Source of the DNA: Hydrotalea flava
Lineage (GTDB): Bacteria > Bacteroidota > Bacteroidia > Chitinophagales > Chitinophagaceae
DNA: 64,000 nt
NCBI RefSeq assembly: GCF_001623405.1
Contig: NZ_LUHG01000100.1
Coordinates: 62,001-126,000 of the forward strand
Direction of reading: 5' to 3'
Shown in pieces: positions 33,861 to 62,180 of the stretch. The stretch's first letter is position 1, and the number at the start of each line of letters is the position of its first letter. A program made the translations under genes and the position numbers. The notes below the pieces were generated by a model. That model was not told the DNA's origin. It saw nothing but the letters and a program-made list of their open reading frames with translations, and made no database searches.

Positions 33861-35252
33861 ATGTATCGTAAACAAACTATTTGCATTTTATGTGTAATGG
33901 CATTTATTACCCTTTCGGCCACAGTTACCAAAAAATTTGGCGATACGCCAATGCCTGAGCCTATTCCACCCTCACAACAACAAACAGGCAATGCACAAAA
34001 AGGATACGAATACCTTATTACCGGCAATTATGTAAGCAGCGGATTCCCTTATAAATTTTACAGAATTATTGCCGGAAAAGACAAGGATAATTACCTGAAA
34101 CGTACCGGGAAAAATGCAAATATTCCCTTTGGCTTTAATGTTATTAAAAATGAACAGGGAATTGATATGGTTGTACCTACCTGCTTGCAATGCCATGCTC
34201 AGGTTTTCGATAAACACCTGTATGTGGGTTTAGGAAATAGTTTTATTGATTTTAGCAATACCAAAAAACAAAATACCATTCTAACCAATACTACATTCAA
34301 ATTTTTAAAAGCAATTGCACCTAAACAATTTGAAGGTAGCAAAGCCATTGTGCAATCATTTAAAGCTGTTTATCCCGATTTGCAAACGGCGGTAAGAGGC
34401 GTAAATGCAGCAGACAGATTGGCTATGTTGCTGGTAGCACATCGCAATTCGGTTACATTGCAATGGAGTGATAGTGCTTTATTATCTATTCCTGATGAAG
34501 TTGTGCCCACCGATGCTCCGGCCTGGTGGTTATTGAAAAAGAAAAATGCCATGTTTTATACCGGTTTTGGCCGTGGCGATTTTGGTAAATTTTTAATGCT
34601 GAGTAATATTTTAACCGTAAAAGATACTACTGAAACTGCTGAAGTGTACAAACATTTTGCAGATGTGTTGGCATATATACAATCTATTGAACCACCTAAA
34701 TATACAAAACCCATTAATCGGGAATTGGCCATGGAGGGCGAACTTTTATTTACTACCAAATGCAGCAAATGTCATGGTACTTATGGGCCCAATGGCCACT
34801 ACCCTAACTTGCTTATTCCTGAAAAAATAATTGGAACAGATTCATTATTGTTTCAAACCAACCAACAAAACCCACAATTTATTCAATGGTTTAATGACAG
34901 TTGGTTTGCCACCGGTAACCATCCTGCAAAATTGGTTCCTTACAATGGATACATTGCACCGCCATTAGATGGGGTATGGATAACGGCCCCCTATTTTCAT
35001 AATGGCTCTGTACCTACTTTAGAGGGTGTACTAAATAGCAAAAAACGCCCTACCTATTGGAGCAGAGATTTCAGAAAGCCAACCTATAATTATGAGGCGG
35101 TTGGATGGAATTACACTACCCATAAAACTGCCGGCGGAAGAAAAGTATATAATACTACCCTACCCGGTTACGGCAATTACGGACACAACTTTGGCGACGA
35201 TTTATCGGAAGCTGACCGTAAAGCGATTATTGAATATTTAAAAAAGCTTTAA
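33861..35252 (+). CDS. Dihaem c-type cytochrome (exported)
   Basis: A 463-residue protein with an N-terminal hydrophobic export segment (residues 5-22) and two haem c attachment motifs, CLQCH (108-112) and CSKCH (301-305). The C-terminal segment PPLDGVWITAPYFHNGSVPTLEGVL is shared with dihaem cytochromes and MauG/peroxidase-like proteins. It would act in the periplasm as an electron carrier or oxidase/peroxidase. It converges on the bd-like operon, which also has haem c tails, so an electron-transfer partnership is possible but unproven. Confidence 0.85.
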   Translation: MYRKQTICILCVMAFITLSATVTKKFGDTPMPEPIPPSQQQTGNAQKGYEYLITGNYVSSGFPYKFYRIIAGKDKDNYLKRTGKNANIPFGFNVIKNEQGIDMVVPTCLQCHAQVFDKHLYVGLGNSFIDFSNTKKQNTILTNTTFKFLKAIAPKQFEGSKAIVQSFKAVYPDLQTAVRGVNAADRLAMLLVAHRNSVTLQWSDSALLSIPDEVVPTDAPAWWLLKKKNAMFYTGFGRGDFGKFLMLSNILTVKDTTETAEVYKHFADVLAYIQSIEPPKYTKPINRELAMEGELLFTTKCSKCHGTYGPNGHYPNLLIPEKIIGTDSLLFQTNQQNPQFIQWFNDSWFATGNHPAKLVPYNGYIAPPLDGVWITAPYFHNGSVPTLEGVLNSKKRPTYWSRDFRKPTYNYEAVGWNYTTHKTAGGRKVYNTTLPGYGNYGHNFGDDLSEADRKAIIEYLKKL

Positions 35253-35299: not shown

Positions 35300-35467
35300 T
35301 TAATACAACCCTTTTATAAACTGATATTCCTTTTCTTCTTTTATATGTACCTGCAACAAAGCGGCATCTTTACTTAAAGAAATAATATACGTGTAAAGAC
35401 GTACCAGTTGTATGCCAATAAAAATAACCAATAACAGTGCTGCAAGTGTGAAAATAACGGTATACAT
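35300..35467 (-). CDS. 55-residue single-span membrane protein, candidate small subunit of bd-like oxidase
   Basis: This gene is easily missed because of its length. It starts with ATG at 35465-35467 and ends with TAA at 35300-35302. The product has one hydrophobic helix (about residues 3-25, VIFTLAALLLVIFIGIQ) followed by a polar tail with KDAALLQ and KEEKEYQF. It begins 11 nt after the stop of the second cytochrome gene, so it is the third gene of that operon. By analogy with CydX-type subunits of bd oxidases it may stabilise the complex; that role is inferred from size, topology and position only. Confidence 0.6.
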   Translation of the reverse strand: MYTVIFTLAALLLVIFIGIQLVRLYTYIISLSKDAALLQVHIKEEKEYQFIKGLY

Positions 35468-35478
35468 AAACTTAAATA

Positions 35479-36846
35479 TTATTGAATTGATAAAATATAT
35501 TTTGCCAATTCTGCTCTATCTGCATCTGAAAGCTGACTCAACGTTGGCATCTGCGGATAATCAGGCCTTTTTTTGCCGGGCGCTTTAATCCATTGCTCTA
35601 ATCCGGATATATTGTTTTTATAAATGCTAACCATTTCTGTAATAGGTGGGCCCACCAGTTTGGTATCTTTCTGATGACAAATACTACAATTGGTTTTAAA
35701 CAGTGCTGCTCCTTTTGCAACCGTTCCTAAACTACTATCTACCACCTCTGCAGTATTACTTTGCTGAGGATGCATTCTGGCTTCTTCAGATAATTTTTCA
35801 AACGCTGCAGTTTTTTCAGCCATTAATTGTCTGTGCGGATCTAAAGCATTGGCACGATAAGTATGGCGGCCACTTCCCATAAATAACACCGTAATACTCA
35901 TTAAAATAACAATGGCCCCAAATCTACGATTGATGGCTTCCTTTGGCCCAATTAATGCTTTCCAAATCCACCACATAGCAATTAAAGCCAATGAAGCACC
36001 GGTAAGAATAATGGAGAGTAATCCCCATCCAAATCCTTTAGATGGCAATGATATTAATACAATTGGGCCTATTAAAAATTGTATAACACTGGCCCCCAAT
36101 GTAAGCGAATAGGCAATTTTTTTCACATCGTATCTGGAAATATCTGCCGGGAATATAGTTTCAAAAGGATAATTTTTTCTACCAACATACCAAAATAAAA
36201 ATAATCCGGTAACAGCTAAAGAGGCAAAAATAAAATGCAAGTAACGCGGAAAAACATTGGGTAAAAATAATGCGCTAATAAAGCCATGAATGCTTGACCA
36301 CTTTTCAGGAAATAACATTAAATTGATATTCACTAAAAAAATTAATGGAATAAACAAAAACAACAACACAGAAGCACCAATAATGGCAATATGCAAGCGC
36401 TTTAAATGCGCCATGCTGTGCCAGGTATATTTATGTAAATAGGTTAATAAAAATGCCACAGCTACCAAGGGTATAATTAAAATCCACATTAAACCGGTAA
36501 GTGCATTGGCAGAATAAAAATAAATGGTATACAAGGCATTAATGCTTAATAGCGGAGCTACTCCTAAAACTACTGCCAAACTTTTATTTACAGTAATGGT
36601 TCGGGCCACTTCATAAGCCAATGTATCATATGCTTTATTTTTTAATCCTTTTATTTCAGCCCATAGCGTTACCATTGAGCCGCCTACCATCAAATTCACA
36701 AAAACAATATGCAATAAAAAAGAGAATACCAGCAAAACAACCAATAACCATTCGGGTAATGGTAGTGGAATAGGAATATCTCTGGGAACAGGTGTGTTCA
36801 TCTGCAAAAAATGTATCAATAACATATTCATAATAAAAGCTTTCAT
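35479..36846 (-). CDS. Cytochrome bd-like membrane subunit with C-terminal cytochrome c domain (subunit II)
   Basis: A 455-residue protein with about eight membrane helices (residues 33-325) and a C-terminal class I cytochrome c domain (CSICH at 387-391, likely axial Met433 in YPQMP). The membrane part seems related to CydA: H46 lies in helix 1 (FLLHIVFVNLMVGG), RYLHFIFASLAVTG with H204 aligns by eye with the CydA segment holding the haem b558 ligand H186, and GRHTYR after helix 8 resembles the GRQPW motif. No quinol-binding loop is seen. It follows the 494-residue subunit by 9 nt. Confidence 0.72.
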   Translation of the reverse strand: MKAFIMNMLLIHFLQMNTPVPRDIPIPLPLPEWLLVVLLVFSFLLHIVFVNLMVGGSMVTLWAEIKGLKNKAYDTLAYEVARTITVNKSLAVVLGVAPLLSINALYTIYFYSANALTGLMWILIIPLVAVAFLLTYLHKYTWHSMAHLKRLHIAIIGASVLLFLFIPLIFLVNINLMLFPEKWSSIHGFISALFLPNVFPRYLHFIFASLAVTGLFLFWYVGRKNYPFETIFPADISRYDVKKIAYSLTLGASVIQFLIGPIVLISLPSKGFGWGLLSIILTGASLALIAMWWIWKALIGPKEAINRRFGAIVILMSITVLFMGSGRHTYRANALDPHRQLMAEKTAAFEKLSEEARMHPQQSNTAEVVDSSLGTVAKGAALFKTNCSICHQKDTKLVGPPITEMVSIYKNNISGLEQWIKAPGKKRPDYPQMPTLSQLSDADRAELAKYILSIQ

Positions 36847-36855
36847 TTTTGGGAA

Positions 36856-38340
36856 TTATTTTTTTGCCAGTTTAACTGCTTTAACCGAATCGGCAGTTTG
36901 TTGTATTTGTATAGCAGCATCTATGTTATTCAACGAATTTACAACAACGCCGGCTGTTTGCACGCCCTCTAATGTCTCATGACTTTGTTGTAAGAATTTA
37001 AGGTAAGCAGCCAGTGCCTCAGCTTCTTTTTGGTTGCCCGGAAAAGGCGGCATAAACGTTCTACCATTGTGCATATTAGGAATATAAGCTGCCATGGCAT
37101 TTTCATCTAAGGGTTTGTTGAAACTTCCATACATTCTTTCAAATACATAGGTAATAGAATTTATGCCTTGTGTGGTATGACACCTGCTGCATGAAAGCAT
37201 AAAAACATTTCTACCCGCTTCAATTTTATTGGTGGCTGTAATTTCAGGGGTAGAGTTATAGGTTGCATATTTTAGTATACCATCTCTTTGATATAAAGGA
37301 TAATCTTCTTTACGCAATAAATTAGAATACATGTATCCGCCAATTACATATGGCTTCCTAATAAATTCTCTTACCCTTTCAAATATGCCTAAAAACCCAA
37401 ATGCCATAATGGTTGGAAACAAAACCAAACCCCAACGCACTTTTCCCGGTTTTAACAAGCCTAATAATGCAATTAAAAAAATAGAAGAAGTAGCGCCCAG
37501 AATAATGTATTTTAATAATTGATAATACTGCTGAAATTCAATAGTACCAACGGCTGTACTCATATTATCGCGCATGGCAGCAGGCATGGCCTTGTAATAA
37601 TAAACAGCACCCAAAACAGAAAATGGAATCCAAAACAATATCCATTTGGCACTGGTTTGTATAGCCTGCTTTCTGGTTTCCGTATTTTTTTGGGTAAAAG
37701 CAAATACTAATAAATATCCAAATGTGCCGGCAATCACCATTGCTGTGGGTGTTCTGAAAAACAATTGTGGCAAATAAATAGGATTGGTAAAGCCATTGAT
37801 GAAGCTATGATGTTTATTCCAATTTCCAGGATCCATCATAAAACCTAATATCGCAACAATAATGGCCATAGTAAACCAAGAGAATACAGATAAATACCAG
37901 CCAAATTTGATGTGTTTTAATTTTGACTGGAGTGATTGATTGGAATTTTTCCAGGTTAAATAATACACCATGATTAAAACCACCTCAGTTACAAAAATGG
38001 TCCATTCTGTAAACCAGGCCCAATAAAATACCCTGATTAAACTTCCAATAGAAGCCGGACTAACCAAAGCAGCAGAAAACCAAATGCCAACACCGGTCAT
38101 CGCTCCTACCGTTGTAGTTACAATAAATGCCACCTTCATCATCCGCTCTGCCATGCCATCCCATTTTGTATCCGTAATTTCAGTTGCGTTGCTTTTACAA
38201 ACACCCTTCTGTTCTAACCAGACAATATAGGGCACAAAGCCTACCGCAATTCCATGATTAATTAATACATGTAGAATGGCAATCATGGCTATCAAAAAAC
38301 GATCATTCAGCCAATCTAAATGAAACATAGGGAAATCCAT
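36856..38340 (-). CDS. Cytochrome bd-like (CydA-related) subunit with C-terminal cytochrome c domain (subunit I)
   Basis: A 494-residue protein with about eight membrane helices and a haem c domain (CSRCH at 384-388, likely axial Met430). By eye it aligns with CydA: DRFLIAMIAILHVL carries H24 where CydA has H19, FTEWTIFVTEV has E112 and E119 at the helix-3 glutamate pair, and REFIRKPYVIGGY matches the GRQPWAIGE segment. CydA H186 and M393 (haem b558 ligands) and the quinol loop have no counterpart. First gene of the operon; a TAGCTTTG -7 box lies at 38361-38368. The electron donor is probably a cytochrome c, by inference. Confidence 0.75.
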   Translation of the reverse strand: MDFPMFHLDWLNDRFLIAMIAILHVLINHGIAVGFVPYIVWLEQKGVCKSNATEITDTKWDGMAERMMKVAFIVTTTVGAMTGVGIWFSAALVSPASIGSLIRVFYWAWFTEWTIFVTEVVLIMVYYLTWKNSNQSLQSKLKHIKFGWYLSVFSWFTMAIIVAILGFMMDPGNWNKHHSFINGFTNPIYLPQLFFRTPTAMVIAGTFGYLLVFAFTQKNTETRKQAIQTSAKWILFWIPFSVLGAVYYYKAMPAAMRDNMSTAVGTIEFQQYYQLLKYIILGATSSIFLIALLGLLKPGKVRWGLVLFPTIMAFGFLGIFERVREFIRKPYVIGGYMYSNLLRKEDYPLYQRDGILKYATYNSTPEITATNKIEAGRNVFMLSCSRCHTTQGINSITYVFERMYGSFNKPLDENAMAAYIPNMHNGRTFMPPFPGNQKEAEALAAYLKFLQQSHETLEGVQTAGVVVNSLNNIDAAIQIQQTADSVKAVKLAKK

Positions 38341-38360
38341 AATATAATATTTTGTAATTG

Positions 38361-38368
38361 CAAAGCTA
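38361..38368 (-). promoter_or_regulatory. -7 box of bd-like operon
   Basis: Minus-strand TAGCTTTG fits TAnnTTTG and predicts a start near 38357, 17 nt before the first ATG. The -33 region is poor, as expected for a promoter that needs an activator such as the AraC-type protein encoded just upstream. Confidence 0.5.
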
Positions 38369-38411
38369 CCTTACTCAATAACGGTAACAGTTTACACAAT
38401 TATGGCAAGTT

Positions 38412-38440
38412 TATACTTATTTATGGAATTGATAAGTATA
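38412..38440. promoter_or_regulatory. Perfect 9-bp inverted repeat upstream of bd-like operon
   Basis: TATACTTAT (38412-38420) and ATAAGTATA (38432-38440) flank an 11-nt spacer, between the AraC gene stop and the bd-like promoter. No U-run follows, so an operator or mRNA hairpin fits better than a terminator. It sits about 45-75 bp upstream of the -7 box, a plausible activator position. Confidence 0.5.
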
Positions 38441-38479
38441 GTATTTTTATAGACAAATGAAATAATTAGGTAGCGCCCA

Positions 38480-39358
38480 TTATGCAACCTGTTTACGAAA
38501 ATCCTCAGGTGTAACAGCACAATATTTTTTGAAGAAACGGGAAAAATAAGAATGATTTTCAAAATGAAGCGACCAGGCAATTTCACTAATACTTAGGGAA
38601 GAATTAACAAGCAGGCGTTTTGCCTCTAATAAAATTCTGTTTCTGATATGCTCACCAGCCGAATGACCGGTATGCAACACACATAGTTCATTTAAATAGT
38701 TGGGTGTAATAAAAAGCATGGCTGCATATTCTTTAGGTAAATGTTTGTTGGTATAATGTTCTTCAATCAACAAATCAAATTTGCGCATAATATGCATGCC
38801 GGGTTTTATCATTTCAGTTTCCTCTGTTGCATCAATTTGCCGGTTCATCCATTCAAATAATTGCATTAGCAACAATCGAAGCATATTCAAATTTTTAACC
38901 GGCTGATGAAAATACTCGTCCCGAATATCTTGTAACAGGGGTTTAATTTTATGTTCCACCGATTGAATATCCAATACAACATGTGAGCCATTGGCCAAAA
39001 AAAACGGAAAATTTTTTAAGTAATGAAAATTGGATAAATACAATGAAAAAAACGCTTCAGTGAAATTAATCAACAAACCTTTTGTACCCGGACTAAATTG
39101 CCATTCATGAACCTGACCGGGTGTTAAAAAGTAAACGATATTTTTCCTTACTTCAAACTTCTTAAAATCAATGATATGAAAGCCGACTCCAGATTCAATA
39201 AACAATACCTGATAAAATGAATGTCGGTGGGGGAATACCATATTTTGATGCGATTGCAAAAACATGTCCAATTCAAATACCAAAACCTCCTGTGGTACAG
39301 AAGTGGCATCTACCATATTACAGATTTCTAATACCGGAATTTTTTCTTTTGCTAACAT
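38480..39358 (-). CDS. AraC-family transcriptional regulator
   Basis: From the ATG at 39358 the protein has 292 residues. The N-terminal half is a cupin-like sensing domain (FPHRHSFYQVLFIESG, FLTPGQVHEW), and the C-terminal 100 residues form the double helix-turn-helix DNA-binding domain (LNELCVLHTGHSAGEHI, ISEIAWSLHFENHSYFSRFFKKY). A longer frame to 39475 exists but covers the -7 box (TACTTTTG, minus strand, 39367-39374), so it is rejected. It lies 139 bp upstream of the bd-like operon on the same strand, making that operon the most likely target. Confidence 0.9.
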   Translation of the reverse strand: MLAKEKIPVLEICNMVDATSVPQEVLVFELDMFLQSHQNMVFPHRHSFYQVLFIESGVGFHIIDFKKFEVRKNIVYFLTPGQVHEWQFSPGTKGLLINFTEAFFSLYLSNFHYLKNFPFFLANGSHVVLDIQSVEHKIKPLLQDIRDEYFHQPVKNLNMLRLLLMQLFEWMNRQIDATEETEMIKPGMHIMRKFDLLIEEHYTNKHLPKEYAAMLFITPNYLNELCVLHTGHSAGEHIRNRILLEAKRLLVNSSLSISEIAWSLHFENHSYFSRFFKKYCAVTPEDFRKQVA

Positions 39359-39366
39359 CTTATCCG

Positions 39367-39374
39367 CAAAAGTA
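39367..39374 (-). promoter_or_regulatory. -7 box of araC-family gene
   Basis: Minus-strand TACTTTTG fits TAnnTTTG, with a predicted start about 5 nt before the ATG at 39358. It decides the start codon of this gene. No clear -33 is seen. Confidence 0.45.
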
Positions 39375-39459
39375 AATTTGTAATGAAAAGAAAATGGTGA
39401 CTTTTCACACATTAACAAAAACAACTTACTAACAAATACTACCCTATTTTTCCAATAGA

Positions 39460-41943
39460 ATGATGCACAATACAAAAACCATAGGGCATACAGTTATCAG
39501 GTAATTTTTTGAAAGCAATAATCAAAAGTCTTTTGCTTTTCAGGAAGCGGCCTGGCAGGCCATAAGTAATGGTGAAAGCGGTTTAATAAATGCCCCAACC
39601 GGTTTTGGTAAAACATTTGCTGTTTTTTGGGGAGCTGTTATCCAGTTCATTGATCAACATCCCAATAATTTTCATTCTAAAAATAACAATGGACTGCAAT
39701 TACTTTGAATTACCTCATTAAAAGCATTGGTAAAAGATTTAGCCCGTGCCATGGAAAATACATTAGATTCTTTACAAATACCTTGGCAAGTTGGTATTAG
39801 AACCGGAAATACCACCACACAAGAACGATTACAACAAAAAAAACAATTACCGGAAATTTTATTAATAACACCCAAAAGCCTGCACTTATTACTTTCGCAT
39901 ACACAACACACACAATATTTTAAAACATTACAAATTATTGCAGTAGATGAATGGCATGAGTTACTGGGCAACAAAAGAGGTGTTCAGGTAGAATTGGCTT
40001 TATCGAGACTAATATATTTACACAACTTAAACCCGGAAAATAAAACAACAAACAATCTGTGTATATGGAGTATTAGTGCCACCATTGGTAATTTAGAAGA
40101 GGCTAAAAATGTTTTACTACTACCACTCAAAAAAACGGGCAGCATTATACAAGCGCAACAAAGCAAAAAAATTCATATTCATACAATTATTCCAGATGAA
40201 CTAGAACGCTATCCCTGGGCGGGTCATCTGGGATTGAAATTAGTACACAAAATTATTCCCATTATTGAGCAAAGTAATTCTACGCTTATTTTTATTAATA
40301 CAAGAGGGATGATGGAAATATGGTATCAAGCCATTTTAGAAACTGCCCCACATCTGTCAGGAGCTATTGCCATACATCATGGCAGTATTGAAAAAGAATT
40401 AAGGGTTTGGGTAGAAGAAGCTTTACACCAACAGAAATTAAAAGCCGTTGTATGCACAGCGAGTTTAGATTTAGGAGTAGATTTTAAACCGGTAGATACT
40501 GTTATTCAAATTGGCTCACCAAAAGGAATTGCCCGTTTTATGCAACGTGCAGGAAGAAGCGGGCACCAACCTGATGCAGCTGCAAAAATTTATTTTTTAC
40601 CTACCCATTCGTTAGAGTTAGCTGAATTAGCAGCATTAAGACAATGCATACAAAAAAATATTTTGGAAAACCTAATCCCCATTGCTATTATGTTATGATG
40701 TTTTGGTACAAGACCTCTGCACCCCGGTTATTGGAGCAGGTTTTTATGCAGATGAATTATTGAATGAAATAAAACAAACGTATTGTTACTAGCAGTTATC
40801 CATTGACGAATGTAACAATATACTACTATATTTAACCAATGGCGGTAATGCATTTCATGAATACGATGCTTTTAAAAAATTAGAACAAGAGGATGATGGA
40901 AGATATATAATTAAAAACAGAAAAATTGCTATGCAACACCGTATGCATATTGGCACCATTGTGAGTGATGCCATGCTAAAAGTAAAATGGATGCATGGAG
41001 GCTATTTAGGTGTAATTGAAGAATGGTTCATCAAACGTTTAAAAATAGGCGACAGTTTTGTATTAGCCGGAAAAAATGTAATGCTGAGTATGATAAAAGA
41101 CATGACTGTATGGGTAAAAAAATCAACCGCTACCAACACCATTATACCCAGTTGGATGGGTGGCCGAATGTCGCTCTCTGCCAATTTAGGGGAACAACTG
41201 CGACAAACATGCTCAGATGCCTTAGCAATAGGGAGGAAATGAAAGCTTTGCAACCATTATTTCAACTACAGCAACAGCTATTCGTTATTCCACAAATGCA
41301 GGAAATATTGGTTGAATTAATTCAGGAGAAAAAAAGTTTCCATATTTTGGTATATCCTTTCGAAGGAAGGTTGGTTCATGAAGCCATGAGTGCTTTAATG
41401 GCTTATCGGCTTTCAAAAATAAAACCTATCTCTTTTTCTATTGCCATGAATGATTATGGTTTTGAACTATTCTGCGATGAACCTATTGAATTAACAGAGC
41501 AAACCTTAAAAACACTATTCTCAACCAGCCATCTTTTAATTGATCTTCAAAAAAGTGTAAATGGCAGTGAAATGGCTGCAAGGGCATTTAGAGATATTGC
41601 AGTAATTGGCGGACTAATTTTTCAGGGATATCCCGGACAACATAAAAAAACAAAACATCTGCAAGCTTCTGCCTCATTATTATTCAAGGTATTGAACGAA
41701 TATGATGTGCAGAATGTTTTATTACAGCAAGCTTATAAAGAGGTTTTTGAAAAACAAATGGAAGAGGTTAGATTAAGAATGGCTTTGCAAAGAATTCAAC
41801 AATCAAAAATAATCATCACCTACCCCAAACAATATACACCCTTTAGTTTTCCCATTATTGCAGATGGTTTAAATCGTAACCATTTATCATCTGAAAAATT
41901 AGAGGACAGAATTAAAAAAATACAGCAACAGCTTTTACAATAA
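39460..41943 (+). pseudogene. Ligase-associated DEXH-box helicase (Lhr-like), disrupted by stops and frameshifts
   Basis: Remnant of the Lhr-type helicase of the ligase-associated DNA repair set. Helicase motifs remain: GLINAPTGFGKT (motif I), VDEWHELLG (II), ISATIGN (III) and FMQRAGRSGHQP (VI). The frame from ATG 39460 is broken by TAA at 39502 and by TGA at 39706, where a conserved Trp is expected (L-W-I-T-P). It shifts to +1 near 40690, meets TAG at 40790, and shifts again near 41220-41240 before the last open piece ends at 41943. Three stops and two shifts exclude a single sequencing error. The intact pdeM follows. Residual ORFs at 39727, 40931 and 41250 should not be annotated as genes. 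Confidence 0.88.
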
Positions 41944-61232: not shown

Positions 61233-62180
61233 TTAAGCATAAATAGCTAACTCATAAAATCCTTTACTGTTTTTAGCTGCCCTGTACATACCTGCACTGT
61301 TAAATTCCATGGCTATATTGCCGTGAGCATCCACACCAATCATCCCTCCCTCTCCTTTCATGGCTACTAATTTTTTATGCACCACTTCATGCATGGCTTC
61401 CTGAAGCGAAAAGCCTTTGTATTCGATTAAACAACTTACATCATGTGCAGCAACTGCACGAATAAACAATTCTCCATGCCCAGTGCAACTAATACCACAA
61501 GTTGCATTATTGGCGTAAGTTCCTGCACCAATAACAGGACTATCGCCAATACGACCATATTTTTTATTAGTCATTCCACCTGTACTGGTAGCAGCAGCAA
61601 TATTGCCATTGGCATCACAAGCTACTGCACCAACGGTACCAAATTTCTTATCTCTTAACAATTCTTCTAAATGATGGTTGGTATGATCTAAAGAGTAGTT
61701 ATCACTATCTCGAATGGCCTTCCATTGTTCATACCGAAAGGGGGAGAAAAAATATTCATCGGGTTCTAATTTAACGCCTTGTTTAATCGCAAAATCGTTA
61801 GCGCCCTTTCCACTTAAAAAAACGTGATTGCTATGCTGCATTACTTCAGTGGCAAGTACTATCGGATTTCTTACATTACGTACACCCGCAACAGCACCGG
61901 CATTTAAAGTAGTGCCATCCATGATGGCTGCATCCATTTCCTGAACGCCTTTCTTTGTAAAAACCGCACCTCTTCCTGCATTAAACAAAACATTGTCTTC
62001 TAATAAAACAATGGCGGCTTTAACCGCATTAATGGCACTGCCGCCATTTTCAAGTACTGCATAACCAGCCTCCAATGCTGCAGCCAGTCCATCTTCATAT
62101 GCCTGTTCTAATTCGGGGGTCATATCTTCTTTTAGAATAGTGCCGGCACCCCCATGTATTACCAATGCGTAAATTGACAT
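61233..62180 (-). CDS. Isoaspartyl peptidase/L-asparaginase (Ntn-hydrolase, type 2)
   Basis: Hydrolyses beta-aspartyl dipeptides and asparagine. The 315-residue precursor self-cleaves before the nucleophilic Thr in DKKFGTVGAVACD, giving alpha and beta chains. The N-terminus LVIHGGAGTI, the GRGAVFTKKGVQEMDAAIMDG segment and GRIGDSPVIGAGTYANN are typical of plant-type asparaginases. There is no signal peptide, so the enzyme is probably cytoplasmic and may recycle damaged protein fragments. It is 56 bp from ispD on the same strand. Confidence 0.92.
   Translation of the reverse strand: MSIYALVIHGGAGTILKEDMTPELEQAYEDGLAAALEAGYAVLENGGSAINAVKAAIVLLEDNVLFNAGRGAVFTKKGVQEMDAAIMDGTTLNAGAVAGVRNVRNPIVLATEVMQHSNHVFLSGKGANDFAIKQGVKLEPDEYFFSPFRYEQWKAIRDSDNYSLDHTNHHLEELLRDKKFGTVGAVACDANGNIAAATSTGGMTNKKYGRIGDSPVIGAGTYANNATCGISCTGHGELFIRAVAAHDVSCLIEYKGFSLQEAMHEVVHKKLVAMKGEGGMIGVDAHGNIAMEFNSAGMYRAAKNSKGFYELAIYA

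Follow-up and report, generated by a model that had tools for sequence, protein, structure and literature searches.

A CydA-related protein pair with two cytochrome c domains and a small third gene in Hydrotalea flava: a probable copper-independent cytochrome c:O2 reductase of the bd superfamily

The window analysed here, the whole 64,000-nucleotide stretch at positions 62,001 to 126,000 of Hydrotalea flava contig NZ_LUHG01000100.1, carries three closely spaced genes, designated A, B and X, preceded on the same strand by a regulator gene. In window coordinates, the features are as follows.

38480..39475, minus strand: AraC-type regulator gene, directly upstream of A on the same strand
38341..38479, minus strand: likely promoter region of A-B-X, the 139 bp separating the regulator from A
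36856..38340, minus strand: subunit A, 494 aa; its CydA-like core spans about residues 1-350, and a cytochrome c domain follows at the C-terminus
35479..36846, minus strand: subunit B, 455 aa, with a second CydA-like core and a C-terminal cytochrome c domain
35300..35467, minus strand: X, 55 aa, single-span, with the C-terminal motif YQFIKGLY; probable small subunit

The intergenic gaps are 9 nt between A and B and 11 nt between B and X. In each of the 80 loci found, A lies next to B, and the conservation of A, B and X far exceeds chance. The closest named relative is H. sandarakina (A 84% identical). Convergent with the operon, at 33861-35252 on the plus strand, lies a gene for a RoxA-like or dihaem peroxidase-like protein (PF21419, 81.8 bits, over the cut-off).

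Hydropathy predicts eight membrane spans in A, eight in B and one in X, and positive charges are concentrated in the odd loops of both large proteins; with eight spans and basic residues so placed, A and B would each have the N-terminus outside and the c domain in the periplasm. The CxxCH sites (CSRCH at 384-388 in A, CSICH at 387-391 in B) are invariant among the aligned homologues and are followed by a conserved Met, M430 in 77 of 77 aligned relatives of A and M433 in 76 of 77 for B. Hydropathy and the 77-sequence alignments thus confirm the description, given in an earlier note on this DNA, of two 8-span proteins with a C-terminal CxxCH and a late axial Met. Apart from the c domains, Pfam and NCBIfam recognise nothing in either protein, and hydropathy and topology place no long insertion, of the kind that a quinol loop would form, between the later spans.

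Both A and B are distant relatives of CydA, a kinship already proposed in that note and now supported by profile comparisons, by intermediate sequences matching PF01654 and by Foldseek matches of the predicted folds. Taken without their c domains, the membrane cores match a CydA profile at E 4e-5 (A) and 3e-6 (B) when that profile contains an E. coli CydA row entered by hand. Once this row is left out, A matches at 5e-4 (probability 32%) and B at 8e-6; the CydA set for this comparison contains an ORF, L101, that seems to have been picked in error and behaves unlike CydA. A and B themselves score nothing on PF01654. Distant relatives of A from other Bacteroidota genomes reach 74 bits on it (cut-off 26), and the same proteins match a profile built from 57 A sequences at 1e-55 to 1e-67; this A profile also matches the solved subunit I of the Geobacillus bd oxidase (5doq_A, residues 13-208) at E 8e-5. 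AlphaFold models, with mean pLDDT of 78 for A and 87 for B and low confidence over residues 329-340 of A (a GRQPW-like turn), find bd oxidases as their leading PDB matches, at E 1.7e-5 for A (7oy2) and more weakly for B (6rko, E 1.2e-3). As A's own match is weak once the hand-entered row is removed, the case for a CydA-type identity of A rests on the intermediates and the fold. The candidacy of B as a CydB homologue was rejected, since profiles give E 0.3 against CydB and 8e-6 against CydA. Tree reconstruction places A together with its distant relatives in a single clade adjoining canonical CydA, and B groups apart with its distant partners; long branches and the wrong row, L101, make the broad picture the usable part of this result. 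A 613-aa divergent CydA match (95 bits) was also encountered at another locus (L113, 1339-3177), in a Bacteroidota genome that has a canonical CydA as well.

The ligands of the haem groups can be followed residue by residue. In canonical CydA, H186 ligates haem b558. In A, the counterparts of E99, E107, E445 and R448 (E112, E119, E325 and R328) are invariant in 77 of 77 aligned sequences, and that of H19 (H24) is present in all 76 that are readable at this position; the spacing of the Glu pair is 7, versus 8 in CydA, and R196 occupies the position of the b558 His in 77 of 77. As regards the retained counterparts of H19 and of the Glu pair, and the missing b558 His, the alignment upholds the earlier reading of A by eye; the segment with E445 and R448 is likewise kept. 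A is thus predicted to retain the residues of the O2-reducing haem pair and to have lost haem b558, which fits the published description of MCA1187 discussed below. The companion subunit has its own set of invariant residues (H46, R201, Y202, R327, Y330 and R331), and in the 77-sequence alignment its two-haem active-site set is incomplete, some counterparts being absent. Its His204, at the H186 position, is His in 58 and Glu in 19 of 77 homologues and so is not a strict ligand; the H186-like segment that had been noted in B is not borne out in that role.

Divergent active sites could alter substrate, and bd oxidases tolerate and handle NO. On these grounds A-B-X might be read as an enzyme of the bd fold that reduces or detoxifies NO with electrons from cytochrome c, which we judge distinctly improbable: A has invariant residues at the O2-reducing two-haem centre, no denitrification gene occurs among the recurrent neighbours that were annotated (a subset of all neighbours), the genome encodes its own NorB (PF22085 and PF00115 both above cut-off), and the described relative MCA1187 responds to copper (PMC4831470). 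Of the earlier suggestion of a cytochrome-c-dependent terminal or NO reductase, the first element stands, cytochrome c being the most likely donor; the NO alternative loses ground to the absence of NO genes among those annotated neighbours and to the separate NorB. The respiratory inventory of this genome further includes caa3-type genes adjoining an NrfD-type (ACIII-like) gene, a cbb3 oxidase, another COX1/FixO pair and canonical CydAB (G000:C77). A further cluster of the same genome (L130, 2079-10667) encodes a COX1-domain protein of 726 aa, a FixO/cytochrome c protein and, beside a DUF2249 protein, a 420-aa protein with a weak match to COX1; it has the appearance of an oxidase cluster related to NO or stress.

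X is probably a small accessory subunit. Of the 60 Bacteroidota loci that could be evaluated, at least 54 encode an X that ends in YQFIKGLY or a near form of it, so that the small protein is indeed conserved in related operons; in three others (L010, L017 and L063) a comparable short protein lacks the motif, one further copy (L003) was detected by tblastn, and some Sphingobacterium-type loci carry a form of 88-89 aa with two hydrophobic stretches. Among measurable close pairs its dN/dS is about 0.09-0.15. X was not found in loci outside Bacteroidota, and in methanotroph loci an unrelated gene of about 100 aa occupies its position. Its place and single span are compatible with a CydX-type small subunit. 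The earlier proposal of a CydX analogue survives as regards position; searches of Pfam and NCBIfam gave no meaningful match to CydX, CydS or CydH, although proteins so short are easily missed by such profiles.

The upstream regulator is similarly persistent. Where 5 kb or more could be read upstream of a Bacteroidota locus, an AraC-type regulator lies upstream on the same strand in 52 of 53 cases, a count that takes in regulators anywhere upstream, those immediately upstream being fewer. The Hydrotalea protein is about 39-42% identical to the regulators adjoining A in Myroides, and about 35-37% identical to those of several other A-linked loci, some of which are linked to SCO1.

More distant pairs bear on the history of the c domains and on the source of electrons. 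CxxCH is absent from B in the distant pairs examined, from which c-haem on this subunit looks like a later gain. Two relatives of A (L118, 5940-8627, and L119, 6546-9221) are about 895 aa long and combine a single CBB3-type c domain with seven further CxxCH motifs of cytochrome c7/MtrC-like character; each adjoins a B gene without c-haem. Fusions of A with B, suspected in two genomes (G287 and G345), were rejected, as the proteins consist of A plus seven more CxxCH, with B a separate gene. In another relative (L121, 6244-10462) the operon order is B, Rieske, cytochrome b, A, which points to a cytochrome bc-type complex as the electron source. Cytochrome c as donor is thus suggested jointly by the two periplasmic c domains, by the missing quinol loop and by this distant operon.

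Evidence concerning physiological role comes from the neighbourhoods of related loci. Of the 80 loci, which are not fully independent of one another, 43 have SCO1/SenC within the retrieved stretch, against an expectation of about 1% by chance, derived from some 2.2 copies of SCO1 per Bacteroidota genome; these SCO1 neighbours could instead deliver copper to another enzyme. Recurrent as well are MbnP (PF20243), MbnH (TIGR04039), YHS proteins and a TonB receptor with similarity to copper receptors; SCO1, MbnP, MbnH and the copper-type receptors recur across several families. Small Cys-rich single-span proteins of about 125 aa (cluster c2, with C...C(N/K)GxC), found in 55 of 80 loci (e.g., L009, 154-522), adjoin SCO1, MbnP/MbnH and TonB receptors; the member tested has no Pfam or NCBIfam match, and the family is possibly copper-binding. 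A 669-aa neighbour in L009, taken at one stage for NosZ, is a TonB receptor. In three methanotroph loci (L074, L080 and L081) A-B lies a few kb upstream of mmoX/mmoY, the genes of soluble methane monooxygenase (sMMO). No copper gene was found beside the operon in Hydrotalea or Myroides, so copper control in Hydrotalea is extrapolated from its relatives; the Hydrotalea genome does have an MbnP/MbnH pair on contig C75 and SCO1 genes on C83 and C66.

Two other explanations were weighed. Fe/Mn-SOD and DJ-1 genes are close to some loci, bd enzymes are often of high O2 affinity, and the Hydrotalea and Myroides operons stand apart from copper genes, all of which would suit a cytochrome c:O2 reductase unrelated to copper and serving, for example, under low O2 or oxidative stress. 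We nevertheless regard this as unlikely, given the recurrence of copper-associated genes in several families and the induction of MCA1187 by copper starvation (PMC4831470). The copper-handling neighbours, the two c-haems and the adjoining regulator could also be accommodated by a membrane redox complex that handles or senses copper or haem and is not a respiratory oxidase; to this we assign very little probability, as the bd active-site set is fully conserved in A and one distant relative sits with Rieske and cytochrome b genes.

Usual cytochrome c oxidases require copper. We consider it probable that A-B-X constitutes a copper-independent cytochrome c:O2 reductase of the bd superfamily, for use in copper shortage. 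This reading draws on homology, residue conservation, gene linkage, topology and the copper neighbourhood of relatives, and from these we infer complex formation, donor, substrate and regulation; for Bacteroidota, the likeliest reading of the sequences is that the enzyme would reduce O2, draw electrons from cytochrome c and be controlled by copper. Under such a scheme, two CydA-type subunits, A and A', would assemble with X as a small accessory subunit; alternative complex III would reduce periplasmic cytochrome c, from which electrons would reach the c-haem of B and/or A and then the two-haem active site in A (the counterparts of H19, E99/E107, E445 and R448), where O2 would be reduced. The c-haem would substitute for haem b558 and the quinol loop, the AraC-type protein would control the operon, and the enzyme would stand in for the copper-dependent caa3 and cbb3 oxidases at low copper. 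A more specific proposal, that Bacteroidota possess a copper-starvation heterotrimer CydA(c)-CydA'(c)-X with c-haem on both large subunits, X as a subunit or assembly factor dedicated to it and not described before, and the AraC-type protein as a copper-responsive regulator, is put forward tentatively, at somewhat under even chances. If the general reading is correct, many Bacteroidota would sustain cytochrome c-based respiration without copper through an enzyme that goes unrecognised as an oxidase by the standard profiles used here; this would explain a gene neighbourhood common to soil and water Bacteroidota and to methanotrophs, bring in a new small subunit, and mean that counts of oxygen reductases in genomes need correcting.

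We know of no purified enzyme of the A-B-X kind. Canonical CydAB(X) shares with it the CydA fold and the active-site residues of A, as well as a small single-span third gene. The differences are considerable: A-B has no quinol loop, A has no b558 His, the spans number 8 and not 9, c domains are added, and B matches the CydA profile and not CydB, unlike the canonical second subunit. Within the superfamily, OR-C carries c-haem. The OR-C/OR-N and CydAA' families of Murali, Gennis & Hemp 2021, as they are relayed in PMC10839748 and PMC12342949, resemble A-B in having paired CydA-type subunits without a quinol site and cytochrome c as the proposed donor; a counterpart of X is not known to have been reported for them. 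The pairing of a copper-independent bd oxidase with a copper-requiring one follows the same logic in M. tuberculosis (PMC12140626). The closest described counterpart is MCA1187 of Methylococcus capsulatus, named "cytochrome cbd" by Larsen & Karlsen 2016 (PMC4831470), which rises 28.3-fold without copper, is detected as a membrane protein only in copper-limited cells, and was proposed to be a copper-independent cytochrome c oxidase. Like A, it is an 8-span CydA-like protein with a C-terminal CxxCH domain that has kept H19 and the Glu pair and lost H186, M393 and the quinol loop; it lies in the sMMO gene cluster, as A-B does in the methanotroph relatives found here, and its orthology with A is judged from the published description and this linkage. 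The published account deals with a single c-haem subunit, a possible partner in MCA1186 and a dihaem c4 in MCA1185 (PMC4831470), whereas here c-haem is carried on both CydA-type subunits, a 55-aa third gene follows, and the host belongs to the Bacteroidota. The divergent bd type with c-haem tails pointed out in the earlier note had therefore already been described, and is less new than was implied; what is new in the present case is X, the c-haem on both subunits and the copper neighbourhood.
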